From assembly GCA_007694005.1 (NCBI GenBank), contig RECN01000078.1, positions 1 through 37,002 of the forward strand: a DNA stretch of 37,002 nt. Reading direction: 5' to 3'. A model generated the notes under the pieces. The model saw nothing but the letters and a program-made list of their open reading frames with translations. It searched no databases and was not told the DNA's origin. Shown piece by piece: positions 29,698 through 34,517 of the stretch. Source of the DNA: Spirochaetaceae bacterium (GTDB lineage Bacteria > Spirochaetota > Spirochaetia > DSM-27196 > SKKC01). Each line of letters opens with the position of its first letter. Within the stretch, counting starts at the first letter, position 1. Both the position numbers and the translations under genes were made by a program.

Positions 29698-30633
29698 ATG
29701 GAACTACCAGTATTCCCCGAGACAACAGAAATATCTCTTTCCCTGTCCTGTGACCTCAGGAGGGTTCTGGGTGGAAACCGGCACGGCATTTCGGAGTTCA
29801 CCTTTGCAGGGCTGTATCTGTTTCGCACGCATTACGAGTACCGCGTTTCCCGGACGCACTGTGGCAAACTGGTAATACACGGAGTGCGCGACGGCCGACG
29901 TTTTGTGTCGCTGCCCTGCGGGTTTCCCGAGTCTCCCGAGGAGCTGTGTGGGCTCATCGCAGCCCATGACTACCTCAAGAACGCGTCGGAAGCGGATATA
30001 CAGACGCACCGGAGCCTCTTCGAAGCGTCGGGATACGGCATCGTCGCCGACCGGAACAACTTCGACTACCTGTACAGCGCGGCGGATCTCGCCGATCTTT
30101 CCGGCAAAAAGCTCCACAAGAAGCGGAATCACGTCAACGGGTTTCTCAAGGAGTATGCACACGAAGAGCGACCACTTGACGATCAGACCGTACACGACGC
30201 CCTGTCGGTGCTGGAGGCCTGGCGTGAAGGCCGTGAGGATGAAGGCGACTACGCCGAGTCGAAAGAAGCGGTAACACGATTCGATCAGCTCGGTCTGTCG
30301 GGGATGGTTGTTTACGTCGATGGTGTACCGGTTGCATTTGCCGTCGGAGAGCCATTAGTGACGGATTACATGTACGTTGTTCACGTTGAGAAGGCCGTTC
30401 CGGGATACCGGGGAGCCTATCAGTTCGTGAACAAAGCTTTTGCCGAAGAGCTCGTGAAACGTTATGAGGTCATCAACCGCGAGCAGGATCTCGGCGAACC
30501 GGGCATACGGCAGGCCAAGATGACGTACCGTCCCTGCGGCTTCGTCGAAAAATACCGGATTGCGGGAGCAGGGAGTCCTGACCTCCTGGTGCCGACCCCC
30601 GAGCGGGAAGCAGTCGGGTGTGCGGGGGATTGA
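29698..30633 (+). CDS. DUF2156 protein (LPG-synthase C-terminal-like acyltransferase fold)
   Basis: A 311-residue cytoplasmic protein made of two GNAT-like halves. The middle segment NNFDYLYSAADLADLSGKKLHKKRNHVNGF is the DUF2156 hallmark, as is the later VDGVPVAFAVGEPL followed by GAYQFVNKAFAEEL and REQDLGEPGIRQAKMTYRP. DUF2156 is related to the C-terminal domain of phosphatidylglycerol lysyltransferases (MprF), but this protein has no membrane part; the substrate is not known. A TACATT hexamer ends nine bases before ATG 29698 and no Shine-Dalgarno is present. The -35 of the next promoter overlaps its stop. Confidence 0.85.
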   Translation: MELPVFPETTEISLSLSCDLRRVLGGNRHGISEFTFAGLYLFRTHYEYRVSRTHCGKLVIHGVRDGRRFVSLPCGFPESPEELCGLIAAHDYLKNASEADIQTHRSLFEASGYGIVADRNNFDYLYSAADLADLSGKKLHKKRNHVNGFLKEYAHEERPLDDQTVHDALSVLEAWREGREDEGDYAESKEAVTRFDQLGLSGMVVYVDGVPVAFAVGEPLVTDYMYVVHVEKAVPGYRGAYQFVNKAFAEELVKRYEVINREQDLGEPGIRQAKMTYRPCGFVEKYRIAGAGSPDLLVPTPEREAVGCAGD

Positions 30634-30658
30634 CCTTTCGATCGACAGGTAAGACAAT
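30630..30658 (+). promoter_or_regulatory. Promoter of the RHH/CobW gene pair
   Basis: TTGACC (30630-30635), exactly 17 bases, GACAAT (30653-30658). Both hexamers are close to consensus. Transcription would start near 30665, shortly before the GGAGG of the small regulator gene. Confidence 0.6.
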
Positions 30659-30669
30659 GTAACACCTGT
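30645..30669. promoter_or_regulatory. Inverted repeat, probable operator over the promoter
   Basis: ACAGGT (30645-30650) and ACCTGT (30664-30669) form a perfect 6-base inverted repeat with 13 bases between, centred at 30657. It covers the spacer, the -10 box and the predicted start point, a position where a bound protein blocks transcription. The neighbouring ribbon-helix-helix protein is the obvious candidate binder. Confidence 0.5.
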
Positions 30670-30681
30670 GGAGGAAACGGT

Positions 30682-30954
30682 TTGGTCGGAAAACGCAAAG
30701 AAGAAATCATTACCTTCAAGGTCGATGAAGCACTCGCACACGAACTCAGGCATATACCGAACCGCAGCCAGTTCATCCGCGACGCCCTGCTGAGCGCTCT
30801 GAAAAACGAGTGTCCGGTCTGTCACGGCGCGGGGACACTGAGTCCGAATCAGATGAAACACTGGCAGGAGTTCGCCGAGCATCATCGTGTGGTGGCATGC
30901 GACGACTGTAACGAGACCTACATCGTCTGTGACGCATCAGAATCGTTACCGTGA
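30682..30954 (+). CDS. Small ribbon-helix-helix protein with C-terminal zinc ribbon, candidate metal-responsive repressor
   Basis: A 90-residue protein starting with TTG 30682, 7 bases after GGAGG. Residues about 8-42 (EIITFKVDEALAHELRHI, then NRSQFIRDALLSAL) have the CopG/NikR/RHH_1 pattern: an N-terminal beta strand followed by two helices, which binds DNA as a dimer. The rest holds CPVCHGAG and, 26 residues on, CDDC, a four-Cys zinc ribbon. The stop overlaps the CobW GTG as GTGA, so the two are translationally coupled. An inverted repeat lies over its promoter. I infer an autoregulated, zinc-sensing repressor of the downstream GTPase; it is not a family member I can name. Confidence 0.8.
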   Translation: MVGKRKEEIITFKVDEALAHELRHIPNRSQFIRDALLSALKNECPVCHGAGTLSPNQMKHWQEFAEHHRVVACDDCNETYIVCDASESLP

Positions 30955-31988
30955 AACGCATACCGATTACACTGGTCACCGGTTTTCTGGGATCGGGCAA
31001 AAGCACCTTCATTAACCGGGTCGTCGAGAACTTTCCCGGTCGCCGATTCGGTCTGATCGTAAATGAGTTCGGCGATGTGCAGCTTGAAAGCAATATCGTG
31101 AAAGCGTCCGAGGAACGCATCGTTGAGCTTTCGAACGGCTGCATGTGCTGCGTCATCCGGGGCGATCTGCTTTCAACGGTAGACAGGCTGCTCCGCCGGC
31201 AACCGGATATTGATCACATAATTCTCGAAGCCTCGGGGCTCTCCGACCCGGTACCGATCGCGAACACCTTTCTGAACGCGGATCTGAACGGGACGATACG
31301 GTTTGACGCGATCGTGTGCCTCTTTGACGTCGAGAACTACGAGCGTAATTTCCGGGACTACAGCGTCTCACACGTGCAGCTGGAATACGCTGACTTCATA
31401 GTGCTCACCAAGACGGATGCTGCCGATGCCGACCGCGCGCAAGCCGCACGCGAGTTTCTCTCAACCATAGATACCGAGGCGCGCATCTTCACGGTCGACG
31501 AAGCGCTCGATCCCGATGTCGTTATCGACACCTTCACCGGTGATCACGCCGACATCCGGGATCTTGAGATAGCCGATCATAACCACGCGCACGGTGATCA
31601 GGACACACACGACGGGCACGAACACGACCACGCGCACGGTGATACGGACACGCACGATCACCACGATCACGCTGGCTACCATCACGCTCACGAAGACGTG
31701 GAAACGCTGTTTTTCCGGACCGATCGCCCTCTGTACGCAGACCACTTTGGCTATGTCTTTCAGCATATGCCCGAAGGTGTGGTGCGGGCGAAAGGTTTTC
31801 TCGACCTCGCCGACGAAGAGGCGGAAGACGCGAAGTACATTCTTCAGTACACAGGTGCACGCAAGGATCTGTACTCCGTGGACTGGAAACCTGGGGAAAA
31901 ACGTCAGAGTGCCCTGGTTTTTATCGGTAAAAATTTCGATGCTGCGGCGCTCCAGCGCCGTCTTGAAGCTTGCCACGCGCCGCTATAA
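30951..31988 (+). CDS. His-rich CobW-family (COG0523) GTPase metallochaperone
   Basis: A 345-residue G3E GTPase. Walker A GFLGSGKS (residues 11-18), the metal-binding CxCC motif in NGCMCCVIRGDLL, EASGLSDPVPIANTF and the guanine-specificity motif TKTD are all intact; a CobW C-terminal domain follows. Between them is a His/Asp-rich stretch, residues about 209-250 with about 15 His. Proteins of this family (ZigA, ZNG1, YeiR, NHase activators) deliver zinc or other metals to client proteins using GTP. The His-rich part and the coupled zinc-ribbon regulator argue for zinc, with nickel or cobalt as alternatives. The start is GTG 30951. Confidence 0.93.
   Translation: MKRIPITLVTGFLGSGKSTFINRVVENFPGRRFGLIVNEFGDVQLESNIVKASEERIVELSNGCMCCVIRGDLLSTVDRLLRRQPDIDHIILEASGLSDPVPIANTFLNADLNGTIRFDAIVCLFDVENYERNFRDYSVSHVQLEYADFIVLTKTDAADADRAQAAREFLSTIDTEARIFTVDEALDPDVVIDTFTGDHADIRDLEIADHNHAHGDQDTHDGHEHDHAHGDTDTHDHHDHAGYHHAHEDVETLFFRTDRPLYADHFGYVFQHMPEGVVRAKGFLDLADEEAEDAKYILQYTGARKDLYSVDWKPGEKRQSALVFIGKNFDAAALQRRLEACHAPL
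31581..31670 (+). repeat. 45-base tandem repeat coding for a His-rich 15-residue unit
   Basis: Two adjacent 45-base units (31581-31625 and 31626-31670) in frame, encoding NHAHGDQDTHDGHEH and DHAHGDTDTHDHHDH. Both begin with the identical 13-base core CACGCGCACGGTG. This is a recent in-frame duplication inside the metal-binding segment of the CobW protein. Confidence 0.85.
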
Positions 31989-32006: not shown

Positions 32007-34517
32007 ATGCAGAATTATCTGGCTTCGCTCGGCATGACATTACCCATTGAAGACCCCGTGCTCATCTTCGGCTTCATTATGGCATTGATCCTTCTGGCGC
32101 CCATCGCCGCGCGGAAGGTCCGCCTGCCCGAGATCGTCGGGCTCATTGCAGCGGGTATCGTATTTGGCCCATACGGCCTTGGCATACTCGAACGCGGTGA
32201 GAGTGTGGAACTGCTCGGTATGGTCGGACTCATGTACATCATGTTTTAGGCGGGTCTGGAAATCGACCTGGAACAGGTCAAGCGGAACATGAGTCATTCC
32301 GTGATTTTTGGACTCATTACCTTCAGCATTCCCCTCGTTATGGGGACGGTACTCGGCATGTCGGCCTACGCCATGAGCTTTGCCGTCGCGGTCCTGCTCG
32401 CGAGCACGTTTTCCAGTCATACCCTGGTTACCTTTCCGGTGGTCACGAAACTCGGTCTTGCGAAGGCGCCTGCGGTCACAACCGCGATCGGTGGAACGAT
32501 TATCACCAATACGCTGGCTCTGCTCGTCCTGGCCATCGTCGCGGCCACCGCGCAGGGTGATCTGTCGGGAGCGTTCTGGTTCAGACTGTTTCTCATTATG
32601 ACCGTGTATGTGGTGGCAGTACTCATCATTGCCCCGAGGCTCGGACGATGGTTTTTGAGAAAGCCCAAGAGTGATGAGAACCTTGAGTTCGTGTTCGTCC
32701 TCGCAATGGTCTTTATAACGGGATACCTTGCGCACGTAGCGGGGCTTGAACCCATTATTGGCGCGTTTCTCGTCGGCCTCTGTCTGAATGCCCTCATACC
32801 CGAGCGCAGCCTGCTCATGACCCGGATACACTTTACCGGAGACGCGATTTTTATCCCCTTCTTCCTGCTGAGTGTCGGCATGCTCGTCGACGTTCGACTC
32901 CTGTTCTCCGACCTGTTCACCTGGGCTGTCGCCATCGGCATGATCGTCGTCGCGTTGCTGTCAAAACTCTTCGCTGCCGCAGTAGCCGGCAAGCTGCTTG
33001 GATACGGACGGACCGAGAGTACGCTGATTTATGGTCTGAGCGTGAATCAGGCGGCGGCAACCCTGGCGGCCGTACTCGTGGGATACAACATCGGTCTGTT
33101 TGGTGATCCTGTTGTCACCGGAACAATCATGATGATCGCGGTTACCTGTTTTGCAGGACCCATAATTACCGAGCGCTCCGGACAGAAACTTGCCGAAGAA
33201 GAGGCCTCGCGACCGCACTCACTTGAAACGCTTCCGCAGCGTATCCTCCTGCCGATCAGTCGCCGGGAAGACGCCCGGCATCTTCTTGATCTGGCGATGC
33301 TTCTGCGCCAGAAGGGCACGAACGAGCCGGTCTATCCGCTTTCTATTACCGAAGAGGGTACTGACGTCGAGTCGGGAGTGGCTGCCGGTGAACGCCTGCT
33401 CGCAGATACGGTGGTGCGCGCCCTGACCGCGGGTATTCCGGTGACACCGCTGACAAACGTTGATCTGAATGTCGGAGCCGGTATCGTGCGAAGCGCGCGG
33501 GAGAATCGTGTGCCGCTGATCCTGGCAGCGTGGGACGGTGCTTCGACGAGCCGTTCGCGCGTGTTCGGTCGCGTACTCGACGAGGTTCTGGAACGGACCA
33601 ACCGCACTTTTTTAGTGACCCGTATCGCATCTACGATTTCCTCGGCGCGCCGTATGCAGCTCCTGCTGCCTCCCTTCGCCGACCATGAGCCGGGCTTTGA
33701 CCTGGCGATCTCGCTCGTGCGGAGAATCGCTGCCGCGGCTTCGATCTCACTGAGAGTGCACGCCCCCCACGACATGCTCAAGCGTTGCGAGAATCTCTTT
33801 GCTCCCGATAAGGACGGGTCTGAGCTTGAGACCGAAGCCTACAGCTCGTGGAAGTCCTGTGTCGACGGTATCGGTTCGCGGGTAGAGGACGGTGACTGGA
33901 TCGTACTCGTCTCGGCGAGAGCGGGGGAAGTCGCCTGGCAGCCGAGTCTGAACCGCATTCCCTCGGCGTTTGCGTCCCGCTTCGCGGAACATAATCTCAG
34001 CGTCGTGTTCCCGGGAGATACCGGTCTCGGCTCGGGCGCGAGTGGGAAACAGTCTGGTGCCGGCAACGGCGGTCCTGCCGGCGTTGCTGAGGCATCGCCC
34101 TTTTCGCGTGGGCGCACGCTGCTCGGCCTGAAGGACAGAAGTATTGACCGGGTCGTTTCGCGCCTCGTAGAAACGGTGGATTGGGAGAGCCGGTCGACCC
34201 GGCGGTATCTCGTTGAACTGCTGAATCGCTATTCGCGCAGTGAAGCAGTGGAGCTCACCGAGAGTGTCGTGCTGCTGCACGCGCACGTAGCGGCGGTGTC
34301 CGAGACGGTCGTAATGCTTGGAGCCCTGAAGGAGCCGCTGAGTCTCGCGGGGATTACCGCTCCGGTGCGGGTTGTCATCATCCTGCTGAATCCGGTCGAT
34401 CTTCCCCCTGAAGAGCACCTGCGGGTACTCGCTCGAATTGCGCGGGCAATCAGAACACCGGGATTTACCGAGCTTCTGCAGGAGGCGGAGAAACCGGAAG
34501 ATGTTCCCGGGTTGTAA
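32007..34517 (+). pseudogene. CPA2-type cation/proton antiporter interrupted by an in-frame TAG
   Basis: From ATG 32007 the frame encodes the first three membrane segments of a KefB/NapA-like antiporter and stops at TAG 32247-32249, right after MYIMF. In the same frame the protein goes on at once with AGLEIDLEQVKRN and continues for about 755 codons to TAA 34515 without another defect; the joined motif MF-x-AGLEIDL is the expected family sequence. So one codon has been changed to amber. The intact product would have about 12 membrane segments and, from about residue 400, two universal-stress-like cytoplasmic domains. Alternatives are a sequencing error or amber read-through. An ATG at 32289 could start a product lacking the first helices, which is unlikely to work. 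Confidence 0.85.

Follow-up and report, generated by a model that had tools for sequence, protein, structure and literature searches.

A small ribbon-helix-helix zinc-ribbon protein and its two-box operator, predicted to control zinc uptake genes in Spirochaetota and other phyla

The window, by which we mean the whole 37,002-nucleotide stretch of Spirochaetaceae DNA that was analysed, contains two overlapping genes on the forward strand, preceded by a promoter and two nested symmetrical elements:

30682-30954, + strand: gene for the ribbon-helix-helix (RHH) plus zinc-ribbon regulator (ORF calling; 273 bp, TTG start, 90 aa)
30951-31988, + strand: CobW/COG0523 GTPase gene (345 aa; ORF and Pfam domains)
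30630-30658, + strand: sigma-70-type promoter, TTGACC-17-GACAAT (9/12 match)
30648-30666, no strand assigned: operator GGTAAGAC-AAT-GTAACACC, lying over the -10 box and the region of the start point (predicted from conservation)
30645-30669, no strand assigned: outer inverted repeat ACAGGT-N13-ACCTGT, present here, with outer arms that are not conserved

The regulator ORF follows a ribosome site (SD GGAGG at 30669-30673), and its TGA stop is shared with the GTG start of the CobW ORF in a GTGA overlap. Both domains of the GTPase are recognized by Pfam (PF02492, 5.7e-47, and PF07683, 1.4e-18, for the N- and C-terminal domains), and a His-rich linker separates them at residues ~209-250 of the translation. 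The initial annotation, which had described a 90-residue protein joining an RHH fold to a four-Cys zinc ribbon, its GTGA overlap with a His-rich CobW GTPase and a promoter before the regulator, is borne out in these respects: the protein has the CxxC...CxxC motif and a weak PF01402 match, and the promoter has its -35 element TTGACC at 30630-30635 and its -10 element GACAAT at 30653-30658, with a 17-bp spacer. A scan of the region found this one promoter where 0.8 are expected by chance, so that it is its position relative to the gene and the operator that carries weight. Its -35 element and spacing are retained at L107 and L108, the corresponding loci of two other genomes of the same genus.

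Relatives of the regulator were found in 84 of the 297 genomes of the class (37 of 112 genera), and 155 encoding loci were recovered from GTDB genomes. The best 80 of these 155 cover at least eight phyla, among them Spirochaetota, Bacillota, Planctomycetota, Hydrogenedentota, Zixibacteria, Pseudomonadota (Magnetococcales) and Electryoneota, as well as Myxococcota and Thermodesulfobacteriota, both assigned by submitters' titles; no relatives were found among viral contigs. Five cysteines and two histidines (C44, C47, H60, H68, C73, C76 and C83) are invariant in 78/78 homologues. Cysteines 44, 47, 73 and 76 fit a zinc ribbon, lying in a C-terminal CxxC...CxxC region of ~45 aa, while H60, H68 and C83, judged from their conservation, may form a sensing (regulatory) site beyond the ribbon. 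At two loci (L105 and L106) the regulator is shortened to 72-77 aa, has lost the second CxxC and C83, and adjoins a GAF-HD-GYP-like gene; these are perhaps metal-blind forms.

The RHH half of the window protein matches PF01402 weakly (17.4 bits, below the cut-off of 20.5), and the same model is matched by 42 of the 78 homologues, the best at 4e-05. The beta-strand/helix/helix pattern is conserved throughout the family, and the two helices appear in the predicted model. The window protein reaches the cut-off of no family in Pfam or NCBIfam, and the whole architecture is covered by none of them, in agreement with the earlier claim that the protein belongs to no named family. Membership in aCcr1 (NCBIfam NF053762) was ruled out, since the score of 20.9 bits, confined to the RHH part, falls below the curated cut-off of 60. 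A sequence search of the PDB gave only zinc-knuckle similarity to anti-TRAP and DnaJ. AlphaFold monomers of the regulator reached moderate confidence (pLDDT 78, with pTM 0.42, and 72), and a PDB structure search with the pLDDT 78 model, a moderate-confidence monomer, returned no match below E 0.9.

The genes found beside the regulator are mostly those of zinc import. Within ~2.8 kb downstream, znu genes are present in 75 of 122 distinct loci (two or more in 71, one in 4), and for a Zixibacteria locus these were confirmed by Pfam (ZnuA PF01297, 7e-68; ZnuC ABC_tran; ZnuB PF00950). A CobW gene lies downstream in 5/122 loci, namely the window, L071, L107, L108 and L110, which all belong to the window's family, and upstream or divergently in another 5/122; the remaining 37/122 either lack both znu and CobW genes or are cut short. 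The pairing with COG0523 that the initial annotation had highlighted thus recurs at five loci of the window's family, but it is a local variant, the usual partner being znuABC. No recurrent small partner gene of the toxin type was seen, the neighbours being znuABC, CobW and housekeeping genes, and a CopG-type RHH antitoxin was therefore ruled out for want of an adjacent toxin gene.

The repeat ACAGGT-N13-ACCTGT over the -10 box, proposed earlier as the regulatory site, is a real palindrome (0.00 expected from shuffles), but its outer arms differ within the genus (ACAGGT...ACCACT at L107 and ACCGGT...ACCGCA at L108), and as an operator it was rejected on this ground. The inner 19 bp, GGTAAGACAATGTAACACC (30648-30666), are instead identical in the window, L107 and L108 (three genomes, same genus) and match the cross-phylum operator at 13/16 positions. 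This inner tandem pair, which we take as the operator, comprises the near-palindromic boxes GTAAGAC and GTAACAC with a 10-bp period, the local counterpart of the consensus GTAWTAC-N3-GTAWTAC with GG/CC flanks. Conservation upstream of relatives, suggested at the outset as a check on the repeat, accordingly holds across phyla for the inner site and fails for the outer arms.

Scored with the pattern GGTATTAC-N3-GTAATACC at a threshold of at least 12/16 matches, with expectations obtained from shuffles, the operator is present in 86 of 120 distinct upstream regions of RHH genes against 1.45 expected. Outside Spirochaetota it occurs at 30/34 loci when operator counts are combined with phylum assignments. 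It consists of two 7-bp GTAWTAC boxes, each palindromic by itself, whose starts are spaced at exactly 10 bp (93 such pairs, against an expectation of 0.3). Which base fills the central W in one box does not depend on the base in the other (26/23/18/18), and a third box at +/-10 was not found in this survey of operator anatomy. In the relatives' upstream regions a TTGAC -35 element most commonly stands 8 or 18-19 bp before the operator; the spacer and the -10 element would then lie beneath the bound protein, which implies repression. The spirochaete families f5 and f7 (L075-L083 and L086) retain the regulator without a GTAWTAC operator upstream, and one genome of this group, G244, has no operator site within one mismatch.

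Sites of the same type also occur away from the regulator gene. Two further COG0523 genes of the window genome carry the operator: a near-perfect site lies 10 bp before a ZigA-like gene (C49:6016; 580 bits versus a cut-off of 600), and another immediately ahead of a further COG0523 gene (C4, start ~9975) that adjoins a WD40-like gene. A third near-perfect site precedes a DinB-type gene followed by the gene for a substrate-binding protein. In this C4 region (L206, G000:C4:4106-9975), the COG0523 and WD40-like genes are followed by a perfect operator, then by the DinB-type gene and by genes for a Peripla_BP_2 binding protein and an ABC ATPase, a possible metal-chelate importer within the zinc regulon. 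The znuA gene of the window genome runs into a contig end, and its promoter region therefore falls outside the assembled sequence; a further match, at C44:6211, overlaps the start of znuC and may be due to chance.

Across 20 genomes carrying the regulator, 19 of the 47 sites that are not at RHH promoters lie at most 300 bp upstream of znu or CobW genes, compared with 3/41 sampled sites in 30 non-carriers (Fisher p=0.0004); two of these three are weak generic ABC ATPase matches and the third is znuA. About half of the sites in carrier genomes adjoin unrelated genes, as chance predicts. Genome-wide counting of sites against a reversed pattern was dropped because non-carriers also exceed this control (63 versus 33 sites), and the location test against non-carriers was used in its place. 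One non-carrier, G102, closely related and incompletely assembled, has a perfect operator 59 bp before znuA (L296; G102:C10:13549) and no RHH regulator found in its genome, reflecting either a lost gene or an assembly gap.

The identity of the genes under the operator also bears on the metal that is sensed. The initial annotation left room for nickel or cobalt, and one could imagine a nickel or cobalt sensor akin to NikR, though smaller, that works for a CobW GTPase loading Ni or Co, given that NikR is a known RHH protein with a nickel site and that Ni and Co chaperones are found among the G3E GTPases. We regard this as highly improbable: the conserved partner of the regulator in many phyla is znuABC, the targets in trans are ZnuA and zinc-linked COG0523 proteins (ZigA-like and WD40-associated) rather than nik or cbi genes, and Pfam finds no NikR_C domain in the regulator. 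With znuABC as canonical partner, zinc is the far likelier ligand as judged from gene context, and the association with ZnuABC, with ZigA-like and WD40-associated COG0523 genes and with a His-rich ZnuA would point to the same metal. A manganese or general divalent-metal repressor was also considered, because transporters of the PF01297/PF00950 type are also able to carry Mn; the two models cover Mn importers as well, and MntC models are among the best NCBIfam matches for one ZnuA. This reading seems very unlikely, since a second importer of this type is encoded elsewhere in the window genome together with a regulator that is DtxR-like by sequence (C147), which is the usual Mn arrangement, since zinc is the metal suggested by the COG0523 genes and the His-rich ZnuA among the targets, and since Cys-rich ligands favour zinc.

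Another possibility is that a FUR-family Zur binds the operator and that the RHH protein is only an accessory factor or an anti-repressor. The window genome does encode one FUR-family protein (C49:14077-14529), and some FUR-family sites are similar in form, for instance the predicted Desulfovibrio Zur site ATGCAACNNNGTTGCAT (PMC545781). However, five genomes have the RHH protein with an operator before the RHH gene or znuA and no FUR-family match: G057, G002, G145 and G157 with RHH and operator, and G089 with RHH and an operator-bearing znuA. Within the limits of assembly completeness, FUR is thus unnecessary for the RHH-operator pair. Of the 297 genomes of the class, 269 encode FUR proteins, among them genomes in which the motif shows no link to zinc genes; the presence of a FUR protein therefore says little and was dropped as a test for Zur, only absence being informative. 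Moreover, the 10-bp period of the box pair fits tandem RHH dimers, and we consider it highly improbable that Zur is the protein bound there. The earlier reconstruction that predicted this Desulfovibrio site explicitly left znuABC regulation in some delta-proteobacteria unexplained and suggested another mechanism (PMC545781).

Based on these comparisons, we propose that the 90-residue protein is very probably a zinc-corepressed autorepressor of zinc uptake, the representative of an RHH-zinc-ribbon family unrelated to Zur and AdcR. The family, its invariant Cys and His residues, the operator with its placement over promoters, and the targets (the regulator itself, znuABC and COG0523 genes) are established at the level of sequence. 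As to mechanism, the regulator would form RHH dimers and each self-palindromic GTAWTAC box would be read by one of them, so that a pair of dimers, offset by one helical turn, would occupy the -10 region next to each other and turn transcription off. Cysteines 44, 47, 73 and 76 would hold the zinc of the ribbon, and H60, H68 and C83 may supply the remaining ligands of a second site with a regulatory role. With ample zinc, the Zn-bound regulator would bind its operator; under zinc depletion it would let go, and the regulator, ZnuABC and the COG0523 chaperones would be made. In the window's family, a His-rich COG0523 GTPase gene appears to have taken the place of znuABC directly downstream of the regulator. 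The idea of a metal sensor that is complete in itself and represses both its own gene and that of its chaperone is thus retained in its core, by virtue of the operator on the regulator itself, COG0523 genes and znuABC, but Ni/Co is unlikely as ligand and the CobW partner is local.

Compared with known systems, the protein resembles NikR in its N-terminal RHH domain followed by a putative metal-binding C-terminal part with His/Cys ligands, and in its predicted metal-responsive control of an importer. It differs in being 90 aa long with a zinc ribbon in place of the NikR_C (ACT) domain, in having an operator of two GTAWTAC boxes 10 bp apart where NikR has long-spaced half sites, and in targeting zinc genes. 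Short boxes, each its own palindrome and repeated in tandem at roughly one helical turn, as in the met boxes bound by MetJ, are a further feature shared with the RHH proteins MetJ, Arc and CopG, which nevertheless have neither a zinc ribbon nor a metal-gene regulon. The resemblance to Zur lies in the target set of znuABC and COG0523 genes and in an operator placed before them, over the promoter; by contrast, no PF01475 FUR domain was matched by Pfam in the regulator or its relatives, which have an unrelated fold, a smaller size, another operator and carriers without any FUR protein. Like AdcR, the regulator is predicted to be a non-Zur repressor of zinc import, but AdcR has a MarR fold and its operator and lineage are unlike those of the regulator; no MarR winged-helix domain was matched by Pfam in the regulator or its relatives. 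The GTPases predicted to be under the regulator are of the same kind as the zinc-linked COG0523 proteins YciC and ZigA, which PMC2770081 places under Zur and not under an RHH protein. The same study used WD40 and znuABC neighbours to mark COG0523 subfamily 5 and a DtxR-like ZntR motif for archaeal znuACB (PMC2770081).

The sensor families for zinc import named in a review are only Zur (FUR) and AdcR (MarR) (PMC6103462). In the open-access papers covered by our search, no description of an RHH zinc-uptake regulator was found; we rate the family as a putative new structural family doing the work of Zur, of which an earlier description elsewhere is possible. It is rather likely, in our view, that this RHH-zinc-ribbon family, characterized by a conserved H60/H68/C83 regulatory site and a two-box operator and spread over at least eight phyla, serves as the principal sensor of zinc uptake in bacteria that lack Zur or use it otherwise. 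It would then represent a third sensor of zinc import unrelated to Zur and AdcR, whose operator can be recognised, so that zinc regulons become predictable in Spirochaetota, Planctomycetota, Zixibacteria, Hydrogenedentota and several Bacillota lineages. It would also offer a very small protein for studying the zinc ribbon as a switch, and place COG0523 zinc chaperones under a non-Zur regulator.

Two minor observations concern other genes. CydD-like ABC transporter genes in two families (L245, G200:C135, and L236, G260:C253) start 5-8 bp after an operator match and are a possible new member of the regulon. In the window itself, a CPA2-type antiporter ORF after the CobW gene (32007-34517) has an in-frame TAG at codon 81, representing either a nonsense mutation or an assembly error; its L107 counterpart has Gln at this codon and an intact ORF of 833 aa.
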